Shown here piece by piece: positions 15,248 through 27,585 of a DNA stretch of 46,143 nt. Source of the DNA: Bacteroidota bacterium (lineage in GTDB: Bacteria > Bacteroidota > Rhodothermia > Rhodothermales > JANQRZ01). The stretch's first letter is position 1. Every line of letters starts with the position of its first letter. The translations under genes were made by a program, and so were the position numbers. The stretch spans positions 1 to 46,143 of the forward strand of contig JBCDKT010000030.1 in NCBI GenBank assembly GCA_038746285.1, in the 5' to 3' direction. The notes under the pieces were generated by a model that was not told where the DNA came from, made no database searches, and was given only the letters and a program-made list of their open reading frames with translations.

Positions 15248-15359
15248 AGCCAAGTGAAGTCGAGTGGAAAGTCGGCGGAAAGTACGGGCGAGGCTACGAT
15301 TCGGTCCGGCTGCGTGGGGGTCCCGCCCCTATCTTTGGATGCGCACTTGCTCCGCTGCC

Positions 15360-15686
15360 ATGAAGCCACCCCTCGTTCCCGATGCGCTCGTCGAGCGCGC
15401 CGCGCGCCGGCTCAAGGTGCTCGGCCACCCGGTCCGGCTGCGCCTCCTCAACGCCCTCCGCGCCCACGGCGAGCTGAGCGTGCAGGAGCTGATGGACCTC
15501 ACCGAGCAGCGGCAGGCGAACGCGAGTAAGCACCTCGGCCTCCTCGCCCGTGAGGGCATCGTGCGCCGCCGTAAGGAGGGGATCAACGCGTTCTACTCGA
15601 TCGCCGACCCGAGCATCGCGGGCATCTACCTCCTCATCTCGAACCGCCTGAACGAGAAGGCGGCGGAGCCTGACGCCGCGCCCTGA
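15360..15686 (+). CDS. ArsR-family winged-helix transcriptional regulator
   Basis: This 108-residue protein carries one winged-helix domain. The pattern LKVLGHPVRLRLLNALRAHGELSVQELMDLTEQRQANASKHL is the ArsR core with its recognition helix, followed by the wing (GIVRRRKEGINAFYSIADPSI). No cysteine or histidine metal-binding pair is visible in the usual ArsR/SmtB positions; the protein has no cysteine at all. It is therefore unlikely to be a classic metal sensor. The start at 15360 is placed at MKPPLVPDALVERAARRLK. It is divergent from the S9 peptidase gene and might regulate it or itself; no operator is obvious. Confidence 0.88.
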   Translation: MKPPLVPDALVERAARRLKVLGHPVRLRLLNALRAHGELSVQELMDLTEQRQANASKHLGLLAREGIVRRRKEGINAFYSIADPSIAGIYLLISNRLNEKAAEPDAAP

Positions 15687-15761: not shown

Positions 15762-16133
15762 CTACGCGCCCTCCAGCAGCACCTCGACCTTCTGGACCAG
15801 CTCGCGCGTGCCGAAGGGCTTGGTCACGTAGTCGTCGGCCCCGAGCGCGAGGCCTTTGGTCACGTCTACGTCGCGGCCCTTGGCGGTCAGAAGAATGATC
15901 TTGGTGTTGGCGAACTCGGCGTGCTCGCGGACCGTCTGGCAGACCTCAAAGCCGCTCCGGCGCGGGAGCATCACGTCGAGCAGGACGAGGTCCGGGTAGA
16001 CCGAGTGGACGGCCTCGAGCGCGGCCTCGCCGTCGCGGGCAATCGTGACCTCGTGCCCGGCCTGCTTCATCAGGAACTCCAGCGAGAGCACGATGCTCGG
16101 CTCGTCGTCTACGATCAGAACTTTGTGCGGCAT
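15762..16133 (-). CDS. CheY-like single-domain response regulator
   Basis: This 123-residue protein is a receiver domain only. The acidic pocket is Asp9/Asp10 (VLIVDDEPS), the phospho-acceptor is Asp53 (LVLLDVMLP), with Thr83 (LLTAK) and Lys105 (YVTKPFG) completing the switch set. No DNA-binding output domain follows, so it must signal by protein contact or pass phosphate on. It starts 11 nt after the stop of the SLC5-kinase hybrid on the same strand, making a cognate pair very likely. In CrbS/CrbR and CbrA/CbrB systems the partner regulator has a DNA-binding domain; here that is missing. Confidence 0.95.
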
Positions 16134-16144
16134 GGAAGCAGGCG

Positions 16145-18946
16145 TTAGCGAGTGGGAGCGGCCGAGGGCGCGGGGGCCACGGGCAGGGTGACGACGAAGG
16201 TAGCGCCTGAAAGCGGTTCCGGCGAACCGCCCGGCGAACCGCTCGGCGGGGCCCCGTCGGCGACCCAGAGGCGGCCGCCGTGGTGCTCGGCGATGCGGCG
16301 GGCGATGGCGAGGCCGAGGCCCGTCCCGCCCGGCTGCCCGTCCGAGGCCGGCTCAACCTGCCGGAAGCGCTCGAAGACCTGCTCGCGGTGCGCCGGGGCG
16401 ATCCCCGGCCCGTCGTCCGAGACCTCGACGCGGAGCACGGGCGTGGCCCCGTCGCCCTCGGGGGCCTCGGTGCGGAGGCGGACGGCGATCCGGCCGCGGC
16501 AGAACTTGGACGCGTTCGAGAGCAGGTTGACGAGTACCTGCATGAGCCGGTCGCGGTCGGCGTTGAGGGGAGGTGCGCCGTCGTCGAGGGCGAGTGTGAG
16601 CGCGATGCCGCGCTCGCGCAGCACCTGGCCGAGCGCGGCGGCAGCCTCAGCTACGAGCGCGGCCAGGTCGACGGCTTCGTACCGCCAGTCGAGCGCGCCG
16701 CTGTCGAGCTTCTGGAGGTCGAGGACCTGGTTGACGAGCCGCGTCAGCCGCTCGCTCTCCTTGATGACGATGCCGAGGAACTCGCGGCGCTGCTCGGGCG
16801 AGAGGTCGGCGTTGTCGTGCAGGATCTCGGCGAAGGCGCGGACCGAGGTGAGCGGCGTGCGCAGCTCGTGCGTGACGGTCGAGACGAACTCGTCCTTGAG
16901 CCGGTCGAACTCGGTCAGGCGCTCGTTGGCGGCGCGCAGCTCGGCCGTCGCCGCCTCCAGCTCGGCCGACTTCTCCCCGAGCGCGCGCGACTTCTCTTCG
17001 AGGGCGCGGCTGTAGGCGATCACCTGCTGCGTCTCGTCGAGGATCGCCATCACCTCGCGGAGGCTCAGCGGCTCCTCCTGCACGGCTGTCGCGAGGACGA
17101 CGCGCGCCGAGGCGGCCCCGATCGCGCCGGCGAGGAGTTGCTCGGCGTGCTGCACGAGCGCGGCGTCGGCTACGTCGGGGAGCGCCTCGCCGGAGCGCCG
17201 GGCGTAGGCCACCAGCGCCTCGTCGGCCCGGGCCGCACCGAGGAAGCGGCCCAGGACGGCGCGGAGGTCGGCCACGGCGGCGCGGCCTCGCCAGAGTTGA
17301 ACACTCTCGCCGGAGCGCCGCAGCACGTCCACAAACGCGACCGCCTGCCCGTGCTCGACGACGCCCTGCCGCGTCCACAGCGACACCCCGACGAACAGGC
17401 CGGCGTTCACGAGTGCGCTCCAGACGAGGCTGTGCGTGATCGGGTCGAGGCCCACCAGCCCGAAGAGCGCGTAGGGCCGCAGGAGCGCTATCCCCAACGG
17501 CCCGGCCTCGGCGAAGGACGCCGGCAACAGCCCGGCCTCCACGAGCGACGGCAGCGGTAGCGTGTAGCCCCACACGGCGAAGCCGCCCACGAGCGCCGCC
17601 AGCGCCCCGGCCCGCGTCGCCCGCTTCCAGTACAACCCCCCGAGAAACGCCGGGGCGAACTGCGCGACAGCCACGAACGAGATCAGCCCGATCGAGACGA
17701 GCGAGTAGGCCGAGCCGATCAGCCGGAAGTAGAAGTAGCTCGCCACGAGGATGCCGAAGATCGCGCCCCGCCGCACTGCGAGCAGGAGCGCGCTGAGGTC
17801 GCCCCGCTCGGTCAGCCGCAGCCGGCGCAGCCGCAGCAGCACCGGCATCACGAGGTCGTTCGAGATCATGATCGAGAGCGCCGTCGCGGCGACGATCACC
17901 ATGCCGGTGGCCGCGCTCAGCCCGCCGACGAAGGCGAGGAGCGCCAGCGCCTCTTGCCCCGCCGCCAGCGGCAGCGTCAGCACGAACGTGTCGGCGTCGA
18001 CCCCCGCCGGGAGGTAGAGCCGCCCGCCGAGCGCGATCGGGAGAACGAATACGTTGATCGCGAGCAGGTAGAGCGGGAAGAGCCACACCGCGCGCCCGAC
18101 GTGCCGCTCGTCGACGTTCTCGACGACGGCGACGTGGAACTGCCTCGGCAGCAGGAGGATGGCGAGAAAGGAGACGAACGTGAGGGCGAACCACGAGCCG
18201 TAGTCCCCGACGCCCTCGAACGTGAGCAGCGGCCGGAGGTCCGCCCGCGCTGCCGCCTGCCCGAAGAGGTCGCCGAACCCGTCGAACACGCCGAACGTCA
18301 CGAACGCCCCGACCGCCACGAACGCCACGAGCTTCACGACCGACTCGAACGCGATCGCTGCGACGAGGCCCTCGTGGCGCTCGGTCGGGTCGAGCCGCCG
18401 CGCGCCGAAGAGGATCGTGAAGAGCGCCAGCACGAGGGCGACGATGAACGTCTGCCCGAGGAACAGCGGTTCCGGCTCGGCCGCCGCGCCGAGGCCGGCA
18501 GCGCCGCTGCTGACCTGGAGGCTCGTCGAAATGGCCTTGAGCTGGAGCGAGATGTACGGGATGATCCCGACGACGGCGATCACGCTCACCACGCCGGCCA
18601 GGAGGGCGCTTTTGCCGTAGCGCGCCGAGACGAAGTCGGCGATCGAGGTGATGCGGTAGAGCTTGGCGACGCGGAGGATCTTCCGCAGGAGCACCCACCA
18701 CAGCAGTGCCATCAGCGTCGGGCCGAGGTAGGTCGGGAGGAAGCCGACGCCCGTCGTGGCGGCGCGCCCGACGCTGCCGTAGAAGGTCCACGCCGTGCAG
18801 TAGACCCCGAGCGAGAGCGCGTAGACGACCGGGCTGCCGATGACGCTGCGGCCCTGCTGCGCGCGCCGGTCGCCCCAATAGGCCACGGCGAAGAGCAGCG
18901 CGACGTAGGCGAATGCGACGCCCAGAACGATGCCCTGGTGGATCAC
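16145..18946 (-). CDS. SLC5 transporter-histidine kinase hybrid (CbrA/CrbS-like)
   Basis: This 933-residue sensor starts with a sodium:solute symporter-like module of about 13 membrane helices (residues about 5-500; [24 protein letters not shown] is typical of the CbrA/PutP-like branch). A cytosolic linker and a coiled coil (about 650-685; [20 protein letters not shown]) follow. Then come a HisKA domain with phospho-acceptor His693 ([10 protein letters not shown]) and a HATPase with N811 (NLLSNASKF), G1 DDGPGIAP (844-851) and G2 GGTGLGLA (873-880). All kinase boxes are intact. It starts with a GTG that overlaps the stop of the upstream small membrane protein (GTGA, 18943-18946). Linkage to acetyl-CoA synthetase and a DUF4212/SSS symporter suggests it senses acetate or a related substrate, as CrbS does. 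Confidence 0.93.
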
Positions 18947-19188
18947 GGTGCGCCTCCTGCCTCCGCCCGGTCCGTCTCCGCGCGCTCGGCTTCAGCCGGT
19001 AGGCGCGGGCGGCGGCCCTCGATGACCCATGCCGCCAGCCCGATCAGTCCCGCCCACACGCCGAAGAGGTACGCGTAGAAAACCGGCAGACCGAGCACGA
19101 CCTCGGCGCTGCTGAAGAGCGAGAGGAGCGGGTAGGTGAAGACCACCACGCCCAATCCGAATAGAGCGATGAGTCGCTGGCTGCGCAT
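18943..19188 (-). CDS. Small membrane protein coupled to the SLC5-kinase (DUF3311-like)
   Basis: This 81-residue protein has two predicted membrane helices (LIALFGLGVVVFTYPLLSLF and FYAYLFGVWAGLIGLAAWVI) and a charged cytosolic tail. The layout, with a GLPVFYAY motif between the helices, resembles DUF3311-type small subunits that accompany sodium:solute symporters. Its stop overlaps the GTG start of the SLC5-kinase gene, so the two are translationally coupled and probably form a complex. The ATG at 19188 is chosen; an in-frame ATG at 19215 would add nine residues. Confidence 0.75.
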   Translation of the reverse strand: MRSQRLIALFGLGVVVFTYPLLSLFSSAEVVLGLPVFYAYLFGVWAGLIGLAAWVIEGRRPRLPAEAERAETDRAEAGGAP

Positions 19189-19381: not shown

Positions 19382-20404
19382 GTGCCCGTGTCGCTCGCTC
19401 CTCTGACCGAGGCCCTGCTCGCCGCCGTACCCGACGCCGCGCTCGTCTGCGACGCCGGTGGACACATCCGCGCCGCCAACGCCGCCGCTGCACGTCTCCT
19501 CGACGCCGACCTCCCCGGTGCGGATGCCCGCAACGCAGCGACCCCGGAGAACAGTCTCGCGGGCCGCTCCGTCTTCGCCTTCCTCGACGAGGCGCTGCTC
19601 CGCGACGCCCCGGACGGCGAGCCGTTTTCCGCACGCGTGGGCGCACGCCTCGTCCACGTCCACAAGACGACACAACCCGCCGGCCTGGCACTCGTCCTGC
19701 GCGTCGCCGAGTCGCTTCCTCTTCACCGCGATGTCGAGCGCCTGGCGCTCGGCCTGACGGAAAGCGTCCGTGGCCCGCTGGCTAGCATCCGAGCCGCCAT
19801 CGAGACCCTGACCGAGTACCCCGGCATGGAGGAAGACCTCGCGGCGCAGTTCACCACGATCATCCGCGAGCAGGCCGTCGCCCTCAGCGAGCAGCTCGAA
19901 GAGTCGGCTGCCGCCCTGGCCGAGGCGACAACGCCCCTGAGTCTGCCCGAGCACCTGCGCGCCGAGGCCCTGGGCGCACGCACCGCCGCTGCGCTCGCCG
20001 AGGCGCTCGCGGTGCGCGTGGACGCCGCTCCCGCTGCCGCGTCGGACGCACCCGACGCCGTGGTGCGGGTCGAGTGGTCGGCTCTCGAACGTGGACTCGT
20101 CCACCTCGCCACCCGCACCGTGCACGCCGTGCAGGCCGAGGCGCTCGCGGTGCAACTCAACCGAGCCGGGCAGATGGCGGCGCTCGACCTGTGCTGGCGG
20201 GGCGCGCCGGTCCGGCCCGAGCGCTTGGACCGCTGGGCCGACGAGCCGCTGGCTCCGGCTGGCGGAGCCAGCGCCGAGTCGCTCCGAGGCGTCGTCGAGC
20301 GGCACGGCGGCGCGCTGTGGGCGCGCGACGCGGACGCCGCAGGCCACGCGGCGGTCCGGCTCCTCCTCCCGGCGCGGATGCCTGCCAACGGCAGGAGCAG
20401 CTGA
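19382..20404 (+). CDS. PAS-domain protein with degenerate histidine kinase core
   Basis: This encodes about 340 residues from a GTG at 19382 (a second GTG lies at 19388). A PAS-like domain (about 5-115; LLAAVPDAALVCDAGGHIRAAN) is followed by a HisKA-like helix pair, LTESVRGPLASIRAAIETL. Glu127 there sits where the phospho-acceptor His is expected. The downstream region ends in a HATPase-like terminus (LRGVVERHGGALWA...RLLLPA), but the N-box asparagine and the G1 DxGxG motif are not visible. It is therefore predicted to be a pseudokinase. Similar PAS plus degenerate-kinase regions occur, to my knowledge, fused to a DnaQ-like exonuclease near acs/actP loci; no exonuclease is present here. It is divergent from the SLC5-kinase cluster and upstream of acs. 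Confidence 0.75.
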   Translation: MPVSLAPLTEALLAAVPDAALVCDAGGHIRAANAAAARLLDADLPGADARNAATPENSLAGRSVFAFLDEALLRDAPDGEPFSARVGARLVHVHKTTQPAGLALVLRVAESLPLHRDVERLALGLTESVRGPLASIRAAIETLTEYPGMEEDLAAQFTTIIREQAVALSEQLEESAAALAEATTPLSLPEHLRAEALGARTAAALAEALAVRVDAAPAAASDAPDAVVRVEWSALERGLVHLATRTVHAVQAEALAVQLNRAGQMAALDLCWRGAPVRPERLDRWADEPLAPAGGASAESLRGVVERHGGALWARDADAAGHAAVRLLLPARMPANGRSS

Positions 20405-20777: not shown

Positions 20778-20886
20778 TTGACACGCATCGACTCTATTTA
20801 TTACACTCTAGTAATGCATTGATGCATGCGTGCAGCCCAGTAGCTCTAAAGATCCGCAAGGGCTATACAAAGCAGTAATACATTAC
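20778..20886 (+). promoter_or_regulatory. Probable acs promoter and operator region
   Basis: TTGACA at 20778-20783 is followed after 17 nt by TTACAC (20801-20806), a weak -10. Around and downstream lie ATTAC-N6-GTAAT (20800-20804 and 20811-20815), ATGCAT-TG-ATGCAT (20814-20827) and GTAATACATTAC (20875-20886), the last ending 16 nt before the acs ATG. Repetition of the same half-site in inverted pairs suggests a regulator-binding site; the regulator is unknown. Confidence 0.4.
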
Positions 20887-20902: not shown

Positions 20903-22870
<1,968 letters not shown>

Positions 22871-24390: not shown

Positions 24391-24678
24391 ATGAAAATGA
24401 CCAAGGAAGCCTACTGGCAACGCCAGCTCAAGCGCATCGCGCTCCTGCTCACCGTGTGGGCGGTCGTCGCCTTCGGGATGGCCATCTTCGGCGCGCCGTT
24501 CCTCAACCAGTTCTCGTTCGGCGGGGTGCCGTTCGGGTTCTGGATGGCCCAGCAGGGGAGCATCTTCGTCTTCGTCTCCCTGATCTGGATCTACGCCTAC
24601 TTCTCCGACAAGGCCGACCAGGAGGCCGGCCTCGCCGAGACCGAAGGCAGCGTCTCCGCCGCCGGCGAAGGCCACTAA
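24391..24678 (+). CDS. DUF4212 sodium/substrate symporter small subunit
   Basis: This 95-residue protein has two membrane helices (IALLLTVWAVVAFGMAIFGAPF and IFVFVSLIWIYAYFSDKAD). The N-terminus is EAYWQRQLKRIALLL, and the FGGVPFGFWMAQQGSI segment between the helices is the DUF4212 signature. The family accompanies a large SSS-type symporter, which starts 30 nt downstream. Together they are expected to import acetate or a similar short-chain carboxylate with sodium. A short Glu/Ala-rich cytosolic tail ends the protein. Confidence 0.94.
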   Translation: MKMTKEAYWQRQLKRIALLLTVWAVVAFGMAIFGAPFLNQFSFGGVPFGFWMAQQGSIFVFVSLIWIYAYFSDKADQEAGLAETEGSVSAAGEGH

Positions 24679-24708: not shown

Positions 24709-26409
24709 ATGGGTATCCAAGAATGGACGTGGGTCACCGTCGGCCTGACGTTCTCCGCCTACCTCTACATCGGCTACCGCTCGCGCGTGGCCTCGACGCG
24801 CGGCTTCTACGTCGCCGGCCAGGGCATCTCGGCGCTCGCCAACGGTGCCGCCACCGGGGCCGACTGGATGAGCGCCGCCTCGTTCATCGGCATGGCCGGG
24901 CTGATCTCGTTCCAGGGCTTCGACGGCTCGGTCTACCTCATGGGGTGGACCGGCGGCTACGTCCTGCTGGCGCTCCTGCTGGCACCTTTCCTGCGGAAGT
25001 TCGGGCAGTACACCGTCCCCGACTTCGTCGCCGAGCGCTACTACTCGCAGACGGCGCGCGTCGTCGCGGCCGTCGCGGCCATCTTCGTCTCGTTCACGTA
25101 TGTGGCTGGACAGATGGGCGGCGTCGGCGTGGCCTTCAGCCGGTTCCTCCTCGTCTCGAACGAGGTCGGCGTGCTGATCGGCATGGTGATCGTCGCCTTC
25201 TTCGCTGGGCTCGGCGGGATGAAGGGGATCACCTACACGCAGGTGGCGCAGTACTGCGTCCTCATCGTCGCTTATACGATCCCCGCGATTGCGATTGCGC
25301 TCTCGCTCTTCGGCAACCCGATCCCGCAGGGGGCCATCGGCGAGGCGCTCCCGATCCTCGACCAGCTCCAGACCGACCTCGGCCTCGACCCCTACACGAG
25401 TCCGTTCGTCAACAACGACCTCCTGAACGTCTTCTGCATCACGCTCTGCCTGATGGTGGGGACGGCCGGGCTGCCGCATGTGATCGTGCGCTTCTACACG
25501 GTCAAGAGCGTCTCGGCGGCGCGGTGGTCCGCCTTCTGGGCGCTGCTCTTCATCGGCACGCTCTACACGACGGCCCCGGCGATCGCGGTCTTCGCCAAGA
25601 CCTACATCCTCCAGCAGTTCACCGAACTCGGTCCGCAGGGCTTCGTCGAGCTTTCGTGGGTGCAGAACTGGGCGCAGACCGGGCTGATCGACACCGAGGC
25701 GATTGCGGCGCTGCCCGCCGCCGACGCGTCGACGATCCGCGACTTCCTCAACACGACCGTCATCAACCGCGACATCATTGTCCTCGCGACGCCGGAGATC
25801 GCGGGGCTCTCGGCCTTCATCGTGGCGCTCGTCGCCGCGGGCGGGCTGGCTGCGGCGCTCTCGACGGCCTCGGGCCTGCTGCTCGTGATCTCGTCGAGCC
25901 TCGCGCACGACATCTACGGCAAGCTCATCAACCCGACGGCGACCGATAAGAAGCGGCTGGCCGTGGGCCGGGCGATGATTCTGTTCGCGGTCGTGATCGC
26001 AGGCATCCTCGGGATCTACCCGCCGGGGTTCGTGGCCGAGGTCGTGGCGTTCGCCTTCGGGCTGGCCGCGGCGAGCTTCTTCCCGGTGATCCTGCTGGGC
26101 ATCTTCTGGAAGCGCGCCACCAAGCAGGGCGCGATTGCCGGCATGTCCGTCGGCCTCGCGTTCACGTTCGTCATGATCGTGCTGATGCGGGCCGACCGCG
26201 TGCTCGGCCTGGACGCGCCGCTGCTGGCCGACTTCCTCGGCATCAAGGCCCAGGGCATCGGCGTGATCGGGATGGTGCTCAACTTCGCGCTGATGATCGG
26301 CGTCTCCCTCGTGACGGCTCCGCCGCCGGAGCGCGTCCAGCGGCTCGTCGAGCAGATCCGCTACCCGCGCGTGATGGCCGAGGAGGAGCTCGACACCGTC
26401 ACCGCGTAG
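24709..26409 (+). CDS. Sodium:solute symporter large subunit (ActP/VC_2705-like)
   Basis: This 566-residue protein is a member of the SSS/SLC5 family with about 13 membrane helices. The family's sodium-site region is recognisable as GAATGADWMSAASFIGMAGL (residues about 46-65), followed by DGSVYLMGWTGGYVLLALL. VRFYTVKSVSAARWSAFWAL and GGLAAALSTASGLLLVISSSLAHDIY are typical of the acetate/VC_2705 branch. It is preceded by its DUF4212 small subunit and lies in the cluster with acs, a porin and an SLC5-type sensor kinase. Acetate or another short monocarboxylate is the likely substrate. A terminator-like hairpin with T-rich flank follows at 26435. Confidence 0.94.
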   Translation: MGIQEWTWVTVGLTFSAYLYIGYRSRVASTRGFYVAGQGISALANGAATGADWMSAASFIGMAGLISFQGFDGSVYLMGWTGGYVLLALLLAPFLRKFGQYTVPDFVAERYYSQTARVVAAVAAIFVSFTYVAGQMGGVGVAFSRFLLVSNEVGVLIGMVIVAFFAGLGGMKGITYTQVAQYCVLIVAYTIPAIAIALSLFGNPIPQGAIGEALPILDQLQTDLGLDPYTSPFVNNDLLNVFCITLCLMVGTAGLPHVIVRFYTVKSVSAARWSAFWALLFIGTLYTTAPAIAVFAKTYILQQFTELGPQGFVELSWVQNWAQTGLIDTEAIAALPAADASTIRDFLNTTVINRDIIVLATPEIAGLSAFIVALVAAGGLAAALSTASGLLLVISSSLAHDIYGKLINPTATDKKRLAVGRAMILFAVVIAGILGIYPPGFVAEVVAFAFGLAAASFFPVILLGIFWKRATKQGAIAGMSVGLAFTFVMIVLMRADRVLGLDAPLLADFLGIKAQGIGVIGMVLNFALMIGVSLVTAPPPERVQRLVEQIRYPRVMAEEELDTVTA

Positions 26410-26481: not shown

Positions 26482-27585
26482 ATGACCGACTCGGCCCCGC
26501 CCCGCGGCTGCTCGCGCCACCTGCTGATCATCGCGGTCCTGTTCGGGGTCGCGCTCGTAATCGTCGTCGCACGCAGCCCGGACGGCGTGCGGAACCTCCT
26601 CGCCAACCAGCAGGCGATGCGCGAGGGGAGCGAGGAGGCGCGGCAGATCGACTCGCCGGATGCGCTCCTCAGCTGGATCGCGGCCCACCCCGAGCGGGCC
26701 TCGCTCGTCGTCCTCGACGCCGACGGCACCGAACGGCTCCGTCTGGCGGGTGAGGCGGAGCGGCCCGTCGCCGGCTTGCCCGCGCTGTGGGTCGCCGCAG
26801 CGTGGGCCGAGCAGTCGGCGAGCGGGCGGCTGGACCCGTCGGCCGTGGCGCCCGAGGCGCTTGCGGTGCGCCGCCTGCCTGGCACCGGCGGCGGCGATGC
26901 CGACACCCTCGCGCTCAGCCCCGAGGCGCTCGTCCGCCGTACCCTGGCCGGCGACCGCGCCGCCGAGAGCGCCCTCGTCGACCGGCTCGGGGACCAGGCC
27001 GTCGCCGAGCGCGCGCGCCGCTACGGGGTCGCGGCCCCGGTCCCGTTCGAGGGGATGCTCCTCGCCTGGCAGGACGGCGACACGACGGCCGCCGAGGCCC
27101 CCGCTCTCGCCCGGCGTCTCGCCCGCGACGAGGCCTTCCGCGAGGCCGCCGTCCAGCGGTTCTACGACGAGGGCTTCCGCCTCACGCTCGCCGAGCAGCG
27201 CGCCGCCGCCGGGGCCTCGCTCCCGCGCGGGAGCGCCCTCAGCTACGCCCGCCTCCTCACCGACGCCCTCTCCGGCACGCTCAGCAGTCCCGACGCCTCG
27301 GCGCGCTTCCTCGACGTACTCGCCGTGCCGGACAGCCTCGGGGGCGATGCGCTCCGCTTCGGCGCGAAGGGCGGCGGCTTCCCAGGGCACCTCGCCTTCG
27401 CCGCCTGGGTGCAGACGGCCGAGCACCCGGCGGGCCGGTCCGCTGTCCTGATCCTGGACGACCTCCCGCTCGGGCTGTTCTACCACCTGTCCCAGACTGG
27501 GCTCGACAGCGGCCTCATCTTCCGCCTCCTCACCGACGAGGCGTTCCTCGACCAACGCCGTGGCACCGGGCTTCGTCGAGACTGA
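26482..27585 (+). CDS. Membrane-anchored beta-lactamase-fold protein lacking catalytic residues
   Basis: This 367-residue protein has one N-terminal membrane helix (about residues 13-30). The rest follows the class A beta-lactamase / serine hydrolase (COG2367-like) pattern. WIAAHPERASLVVLDADGTE and ERPVAGLPALWVAAAWAE correspond to the active-site helix, LAGDRAAESALVDRLG to the SDN loop, and FGAKGGGFPGHLAFAAWV to the K-[TG]-G strand. The SxxK positions read GLPA (98-101) and SDN reads GDR (157-159), so hydrolase activity is unlikely. It could bind peptidoglycan-like ligands or be a structural paralogue. Its last codons overlap the remnant of a short-chain dehydrogenase gene, so the C-terminus may be altered. 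Confidence 0.78.
   Translation: MTDSAPPRGCSRHLLIIAVLFGVALVIVVARSPDGVRNLLANQQAMREGSEEARQIDSPDALLSWIAAHPERASLVVLDADGTERLRLAGEAERPVAGLPALWVAAAWAEQSASGRLDPSAVAPEALAVRRLPGTGGGDADTLALSPEALVRRTLAGDRAAESALVDRLGDQAVAERARRYGVAAPVPFEGMLLAWQDGDTTAAEAPALARRLARDEAFREAAVQRFYDEGFRLTLAEQRAAAGASLPRGSALSYARLLTDALSGTLSSPDASARFLDVLAVPDSLGGDALRFGAKGGGFPGHLAFAAWVQTAEHPAGRSAVLILDDLPLGLFYHLSQTGLDSGLIFRLLTDEAFLDQRRGTGLRRD

Follow-up and report, generated by a model that had tools for sequence, protein, structure and literature searches.

To our knowledge, few pseudo-histidine kinases have been studied, and DivL of Caulobacter is the only one for which we know of a worked-out mechanism. DivL carries several PAS domains and a DHp-CA core in which a tyrosine takes the place of the acceptor histidine, and it is involved in cell-fate control with the single-domain regulator DivK and the live kinase CckA. 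In the parts of the DivL study considered here, R553 (acceptor+3) is required for the binding of DivK, which is disrupted by R553A, and the acceptor residue is dispensable, Y550H behaving like the wild type. Mutations of T557 and Y562 also break the binding, and the PAS domains set a selectivity for phosphorylated DivK, the form that the kinase core reads (PMC4211667). Another pseudokinase version of a histidine kinase is reported, in the excerpt available, for ChrS of Corynebacterium glutamicum (PMC9491836).

A second group of described systems (CrbS/R, CbrA/B, and RpuS/R) is built around SLC5 transporter-kinases and has acs and symporter genes nearby or among its targets. The available portions of three papers give CrbS and MxtR as SLC5-STAC-PAS-DHp-CA-REC proteins, CbrA as the same without REC, and a LuxR-type regulator for the CrbS system of Sinorhizobium (PMC7918813, PMC5715377, PMC9100948). 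CbrX, whose translation is coupled to that of CbrA, is reported to bind the SLC5 domain of this kinase (PMC6591292, PMC13022988).

Here, we analyzed a stretch of 46,143 nt from a bacterium of the order Rhodothermales (contig JBCDKT010000030.1), hereafter the window, which encodes a PAS pseudo-histidine kinase. Like DivL, this protein has a PAS domain, a DHp-CA core with a replaced acceptor and an Arg at acceptor+3, and it is associated with a single-domain regulator and a live kinase. It differs from DivL in having a Glu instead of the Tyr, a single PAS domain, Ala/Ala in place of T557/Y562, and an SLC5 kinase as neighbour in an acetate operon. As in the CrbS, CbrA, and RpuS systems, the locus has an SLC5 transporter-kinase close to acs and symporter genes, and as in that of CbrA a small membrane protein is encoded just upstream of the kinase. 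Unlike in CrbS, PAS and REC are on separate proteins, and the CheY-like regulator has no DNA-binding domain. ChrS derives from a different kinase and responds to a heme signal.

Fold and catalytic residues of the window protein

The gene lies at 19382..20404 on the forward strand, starts with GTG, and encodes 340 aa, its stop codon ending at 20404. Its protein contains TESVRGPLASIRAA, in which the Glu is residue 127, with its codon at 19760..19762 of the same strand (19382+126*3). When the family profile was aligned with the live SLC5 kinases (99.4% probability, 220 columns), Glu127 fell on the His of HELRTPL. The gene limits and the replacement of the phospho-acceptor, both proposed in the sequence-only reading, therefore agree with the start, stop, length, and profile alignment.

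The protein comprises a PAS domain (residues about 6-109), a pseudo-DHp that includes Glu127 (114-183), and a degenerate CA domain (about 187-333). Pfam gave a PAS_8 match above the cut-off at residues 10-52 (E 3.8e-5) and a weak HisKA match at residues 127-173 (E 0.018), and HATPase_c was absent at E<=1. Among the 18 members of the family found in the order, HisKA was detected in 13 and HATPase_c in three (E<=0.1). We then modelled the protein with AlphaFold2, using 70 sequences as input. The model is confident (mean pLDDT 89.8) and shows the PAS domain, a complete DHp of two long helices (114-145 and 151-183), and a CA sandwich. Its top structural matches are the CA domains of kinases (PrrB 1ysr, Z 14.1, rmsd 2.8 over 132), and residues 2-109 match the Shewanella PAS domain 3mfx (Z 12.2). 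DivL (4q20_B) comes up at Z 12.6, with an rmsd of 3.1 over 129, tied with many live kinases, which shows no special kinship and is no evidence against kinship either. As far as the model goes, the PAS histidine-kinase fold is whole, and together with the Pfam match it bears out the earlier view that the PAS domain and the shape of the kinase core have been retained.

The residues that make such a fold a kinase are missing. The window protein has Arg245 at the position of the N-box Asn and Trp272 at that of the G1 Asp. In the 70 pseudokinases of our family alignment, the Mg-binding Asn is replaced by Arg in 44 and present in one, and at the G1 Asp position 67 have Trp and none has Asp; in live SLC5 kinases, the Asn is found in 55/55 cores and the Asp in 53/55. 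Hence, the N and G1 boxes, reported as not visible in this one sequence, are gone family-wide, and we found no ATP site in the 70 aligned rows. A single G1 glycine, G274, is retained in all 18 short forms. Judging from the alignment, these changes are consistent substitutions rather than random decay.

In the 18 short forms, the acid at His+1 is replaced by G, Q, S, A, T, or M, His+4 is variable, and the aligned DHp helices hold no substitute conserved His. A conserved His elsewhere in the helix and a functional ATP-binding site in a model had been named as observations that would overturn the pseudokinase assignment; the His, and an ATP site in the aligned sequences, were sought and neither was found. 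We thus reject a real kinase with its His at another position, and likewise a sequencing or frame error, given 17 concordant orthologues. In other words, the protein has the DHp and CA fold of an active HisKA histidine kinase and lacks its H-box His, N-box Asn, and G1 Asp.

Distribution and diversification of the family

To describe the family in the order Rhodothermales, we surveyed 114 genomes, several of which are drafts with 83-90% completeness where absences are weak evidence. The pseudokinase was found in 18 of them, including the window genome. The frames of the 17 orthologues stop after the CA domain, and we call these proteins the short form. They are 22-34% identical to the window protein, and fourteen residues are invariant in the 18 sequences: E127, R130, R137, A138, A139, E141, T142, P147, Q156, Q164, L168, R281, W285, and P330. 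At such identities the invariance of Glu127 exceeds chance. The DHp is the best conserved domain, with a mean pairwise identity of 0.45 vs 0.28 for PAS and 0.31 for CA (17 rows, one orthologue cut by a contig end being omitted), and the same holds for the live SLC5 kinase (0.68 for DHp vs 0.46 for CA, 9 rows).

The live SLC5 kinase was detected at E<=1e-150 in 17 of the 114 genomes, every one among these 18; in the eighteenth (G076), tblastn detected the gene where the contig end cuts it. The two genes are therefore both present or both missing in the order, where they occur in 8 of 49 genera; the only other genome of the window genus has neither. The association with a live SLC5 kinase, noted from the window only, thus extends to the identical 18 genomes and normally takes the form of one operon. 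We also sampled 296 genomes from across the phylum. The pseudokinase was detected in 11 of these (E<=1e-20), always together with the SLC5 kinase, which at E<=1e-100 is found in 32. We examined eight of the 21 genomes with the kinase and no pseudokinase match. One (G227) has a fused pseudokinase by tblastn, and the remaining seven, all Bacteroidota, show the SLC5 kinase, CheY, and an acetyl-CoA synthetase (ACS) without any pseudokinase, with one or two acyl-CoA synthetases after CheY; six of them also encode the small membrane protein ahead of the kinase (no match in L129). This suggests that the pseudokinase is an accessory of the system and not its core. At two of these loci (L125 and L126), a distant homologue of DnaQ-type exonucleases (28-33% identity) lies a few kb away.

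A scan with the window protein as single sequence revealed no relative, and an alignment-based scan gave 63 loci, mainly in Proteobacteria, Chloroflexi, and Rhodothermales, and also in Calditrichota, Myxococcota, and others. As these loci were picked by the pattern [LV][AS][NSG][IV]RAA[IVA]ET, the invariance of R137-T142 in this set is built in, which does not apply to E127, R130, P147, or the residues of the CA domain, all lying outside the pattern. We dropped eight copies of order genomes, two live kinases (L098 and L099), and one locus with a broken frame in which the exonuclease is present (L066). The family alignment of 70 rows then comprises the 18 short forms of the order and 52 others, namely 51 of the fused type and L051, a short protein from Chloroflexi. 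L095 was counted as fused-type even though its contig ends before the expected exonuclease.

Outside Rhodothermales, with the exception of L098, L099, L051, and L095, tblastn identified exonuclease homology at every locus, at the expected fusion site. The open frames of these relatives mostly have about 700-900 residues. Ten proteins were tested with Pfam, and RNase_T was confirmed in the seven that have the exonuclease. Plasmid-borne relatives are annotated as 'exonuclease domain-containing protein' or 'DNA polymerase III subunit epsilon'. When three exonuclease domains were used as tblastn queries, none matched the window, which upholds the remark that an exonuclease present at similar loci is missing here. 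The window protein also differs from these PAS-pseudokinase-DnaQ exonuclease fusions by lacking their N-terminal membrane part and by having Q156 and Q164, which are invariant in the short form; the 51 fused rows mostly have Arg at 156 and in 50 cases Glu at 164. It resembles them in falling in the same tree group (100/99) and mostly in the same cassette.

The fused-type rows also show which residues of the pseudo-DHp are constrained. Position 127 is E in 38, D in five, Q, G, and R in two each, and H and S in one each, and position 130 is Arg in 51/51. The only fused relative with the acceptor His is L093 (7004-8011, THEARHSVAGIRAA). As the motif lies just downstream of these positions, a second set was found by profile instead. 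It consists of four fused relatives from the window's class and of 16 gammaproteobacterial matches, from 13 of 274 genomes. There, position 127 is E in 12, R in four, N in two, and D and V in one each, with no His, and Arg130 is present in 20/20. One gene, from P. indica, is shared between the two sets (L043 = L161), so that the acceptor His occurs in one of 70 distinct sequences (51 + 20 minus the shared one). The Glu of the short forms (18/18) is thus conserved among orthologues, a check proposed in the sequence-only reading, but varies in the fused forms. Arg130, whose codon in the window is 19769..19771 (forward strand) and which corresponds to His+3, is found in 70/70 rows of the family alignment and is strict in all 90 rows examined (89 distinct).

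We built a tree of 24 pseudokinases and 34 live kinases, DivL not among them. A branch with support of 100/99 separates all of the former from the latter; the tree was rooted at midpoint and has several long branches. The single group suggests that activity was probably lost once, and long ago. The tree rules out that the pseudokinase is a recent copy of the SLC5 kinase, the long branches and midpoint root making the deep relations unsure.

In Rhodothermales, an exonuclease is found on a separate paralogue with a membrane-PAS-CA-exonuclease organization, in seven of the 18 genomes (G036, G037, G038, G040, G041, G075, and G077). At these loci (L026 and L028-L033), it is the divergent gene in front of ArsR, i.e., divergent from the operon. 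Among the 114 genomes and the matches listed to E 1e-25, it is restricted to these seven, which also have the short pseudokinase. In the other 11 genomes, including that of the window, matches are confined to the exonuclease domain or there is none among those listed (E 1e-25). The DHp is cleanly missing from five of the seven paralogues (0/70 columns) and replaced by an unrelated stretch in two. A model of one of the latter (L029, pLDDT 73.7) has two short low-confidence helices at the DHp site (256-278 and 283-301). Hence, we describe the DHp as degenerate rather than deleted in genus g37 (L029 and L033). Nuclease and pseudo-DHp are separated in these genomes, and the pseudo-DHp survives without the nuclease.

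Gene neighbourhood and partner proteins

The window encodes, in order, an ArsR-type regulator (15264..15686, forward strand), the CheY-like single-domain response regulator of 123 aa (15762..16133, reverse strand), the SLC5 transporter-histidine kinase of 933 aa (16145..18946, reverse), and a small membrane protein of 81 aa (18943..19188, reverse). After the pseudokinase come ACS (acetate--CoA ligase, 20903..22870), the small subunit of a sodium symporter (DUF4212, 24391..24678), and a VC_2705-family sodium/solute symporter similar to ActP (24709..26409), all on the forward strand. A beta-lactamase-fold protein (Pfam Beta-lactamase2, E 1.2e-9) is encoded after the symporter gene (26482-27585), and a gene of this type is at that place in 10 of the 17 other loci of the order, some of the others being cut by contig ends.

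The usual order of the operon is ArsR, small membrane protein, SLC5 kinase, CheY, pseudokinase, and ACS, with the ArsR gene heading the row in the relatives where it is found. Of the 17 other loci, 15 have SLC5 kinase, CheY, and pseudokinase in series on one strand (the kinase being cut in L027), and the remaining two (L023 and L025) are truncated by contig ends. ACS follows on the same strand in 13 of the 17, and further frequent neighbours are a porin, DUF4212, the symporter, and the beta-lactamase-fold protein. Relative to the 15 loci that show it, the window block of CheY, SLC5 kinase, and small membrane protein (15762-19188) is inverted, so CheY and the SLC5 kinase are divergent from the pseudokinase and ACS. 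A search for inverted repeats around this block gave 45 imperfect pairs, the longest of 72 nt at 71% complementarity, and among the 25 listed no pair flanks the block on both sides. A sigma-70-like promoter match (20778-20807, TTGACA-18-TACACT) lies in the 498 nt that precede ACS, which may thus have its own promoter.

To quantify the link with CheY, we used 75 loci, of which L066 gave no row and 66 of the other 74 had at least 1500 nt upstream. CheY lies directly upstream of the pseudokinase on the same strand in 55 of these 66 evaluable loci. The 11 exceptions are the window, because of the inversion, and ten loci with fused forms; these ten lie close to an ActP-like gene and have neither CheY nor a cassette-type SLC5 kinase in the retrieved stretch. 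In the same survey, 49 of 60 loci have the SLC5 kinase, counting one short partial match (L082). CheY and pseudokinase remain neighbours at L122, with the SLC5 kinase at a distance of 8 kb, and at L058, L080, and L085, where it is not in the retrieved stretch.

The window SLC5 kinase has live boxes and Pfam matches to SSF, HisKA, and HATPase_c; a STAC domain, for which no Pfam match is listed, is presumed from a motif. No receiver was detected in it by Pfam. PAS was undetected in all six SLC5 kinases searched (E<=1 for the window protein and E<=0.01 for the other five). Of the 60 SLC5 kinases found, we counted the 55 fitting the H-box pattern and left out the other five. The CheY protein, with D53 and K105 in the window, is intact and keeps the former in 63/65 cases and the latter in 65/65. 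When the family profile was used to find the nearest live kinase of a genome, an SLC5-type kinase came first in eight of the nine genomes searched (the exception being G055); in G380, this kinase is a 270-residue frame that the tree places among SLC5 kinases. The small membrane protein has no family match and is conserved before the kinase in several phyla. Its gene overlaps the start of the SLC5 kinase gene by 4 nt and takes the place of CbrX, of which it is possibly the counterpart, the likeness being one of place and overlap.

Proposed mode of action and significance

Our preferred reading, to which we assign a probability of about 0.5, is that the window protein is a conserved PAS pseudo-histidine kinase that serves as accessory of the SLC5-kinase/CheY system in an acetate-utilisation operon and docks CheY under the control of its PAS domain. 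That it is a pseudokinase is well supported; the mechanism we infer, and the link with acetate we infer because ACS and the symporter adjoin. The protein would probably relay signals by binding rather than phosphorylating, and the role of 'scaffold or ligand-dependent modulator' suggested by the sequence-only reading fits. We narrow this role to that of a CheY reader because CheY is the most constant neighbour and because the docking Arg, not the Glu, is kept family-wide. The SLC5 kinase would sense a carboxylate and phosphorylate CheY. A dimer of the pseudokinase would dock CheY or CheY-P via Arg130 and the DHp helices, neither taking up nor removing the phosphoryl group, and its PAS domain would set the affinity for CheY according to a small ligand, much as DivL acts with DivK and CckA. 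CheY would be the primary partner, and the SLC5 kinase perhaps another. The exonuclease would provide the output in fused relatives. In the short form, CheY would be sequestered or set free, or the SLC5 kinase be influenced, and the expression of acs and the symporter thereby tuned.

This reading is favoured by the retention of Glu127 in the short forms (18/18) and of Arg130 in the family (70/70), when the His, the acid at His+1, the Thr at His+4, and the ATP-site residues are gone. It is also favoured by the position of Arg130, which is that of DivL R553, by the DHp being the best conserved domain, by the adjacency to an intact CheY (55/66), by the joint occurrence with the SLC5 kinase in the order, by the SLC5 type of the nearest live kinase (8/9), and by the failure to detect PAS in that kinase (6/6). 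Several observations stand against it. Arg at His+3 is also present in 55/55 live SLC5 kinases, and its retention may thus reflect the fold; the Glu varies among the fused forms; in the window, pseudokinase and CheY are divergent; ten fused relatives have no CheY and no cassette-type SLC5 kinase in the retrieved stretch, and seven Bacteroidota cassettes are found without the pseudokinase. Finally, the counterparts of DivL T557 and Y562 (acceptor+7 and +12) are Ala134 and Ala139, a difference that would be expected with a different partner if such residues set partner specificity. We also consider it possible, and put it forward tentatively, that the locus is a CrbS-type hybrid kinase in exploded form, with a PAS-less SLC5 kinase, a free CheY receiver, and a PAS-bearing pseudokinase reading CheY. 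In most phyla this reader would drive a fused DnaQ-type exonuclease, a transporter-kinase signal thus controlling a nuclease through a pseudokinase, and in Rhodothermales reader and nuclease would have been separated or the nuclease lost.

The main rival, compatible with CheY docking and in our view rather doubtful, is that the pseudokinase heterodimerises through its DHp with the SLC5 kinase and supplies the PAS input that the latter lacks, CheY binding being secondary. The failure to detect PAS in 6/6 of these kinases speaks for it, the PAS domain of CbrA being reported as essential for signalling (PMC6591292). So do the SLC5 type of the nearest live kinase in 8/9 genomes and the all-or-none co-occurrence in the order. 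However, the tree group of the pseudokinases (100/99) shows that they are not recent copies of such a partner, their adjacency to CheY persists where the SLC5 kinase lies elsewhere or was not detected, and in Bacteroidota SLC5 kinases of this type do without a pseudokinase.

Known CheY-P phosphatases of the CheX/CheC/CheZ type have an ExxN or DxxxQ catalytic motif (ExxN in CheX and CheC), and HisKA-type phosphatases have ExxT/N. An invariant acid at the phospho-site of the short form (18/18) and a single-domain regulator in the cassette could suggest that Glu127 is used in this manner to dephosphorylate CheY-P. We find this improbable, since the pseudokinase has no ExxN, ExxT/N, or DxxxQ motif, its +3 position being Arg and +4 variable, some fused relatives have D, Q, G, R, S, V, or N instead of the Glu, and DivL is reported to have no phosphatase activity in the passages of the paper at hand (PMC4211667). 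The same strictly retained negative charge might instead mimic phospho-histidine and lock CheY in one state, making the protein a constitutive decoy without PAS gating. This is unlikely as well: fused forms tolerate other residues, including Arg, and the PAS domain has been retained. A functionless remnant of a fused exonuclease protein, as one could imagine from the missing exonuclease and the highly variable PAS and CA, is very improbable in view of the 14 invariant residues at 22-34% identity, the strict co-occurrence, the confident fold, and the constraint that the short form has of its own (Q156 and Q164).

Open-access full-text searches, with subscription literature outside their scope, gave no publication on this pseudokinase family, and the word 'exonuclease' occurs 0 times in PMC9100948, PMC5715377, PMC5436829, PMC7918813, and PMC13022988. 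To that extent, the family is undescribed. It provides a second, widespread case of a pseudo-histidine kinase, in Rhodothermales, Proteobacteria, Chloroflexi, and Calditrichota, tied to a metabolic transporter-kinase. It also offers an evolutionary test of why a dead kinase core persists, since the acceptor and ATP site vary and the docking Arg is fixed, and since a missing or degenerate DHp is confined, within the order, to nuclease paralogues that live beside the short form. If the CheY-docking reading is true, the proteins annotated at these loci as 'DNA polymerase III subunit epsilon' or 'exonuclease domain-containing protein' would be signalling effectors of carboxylate sensing. In the part of the study available, the exonuclease pp_0353 of P. 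putida, which is controlled by the SLC5/STAC system MxtR/ErdR, is needed for growth on pyruvate; it is described there as a member of the RNase_T family, not as a fused protein (PMC9927547). This requirement would fit the effector role, if that role holds.
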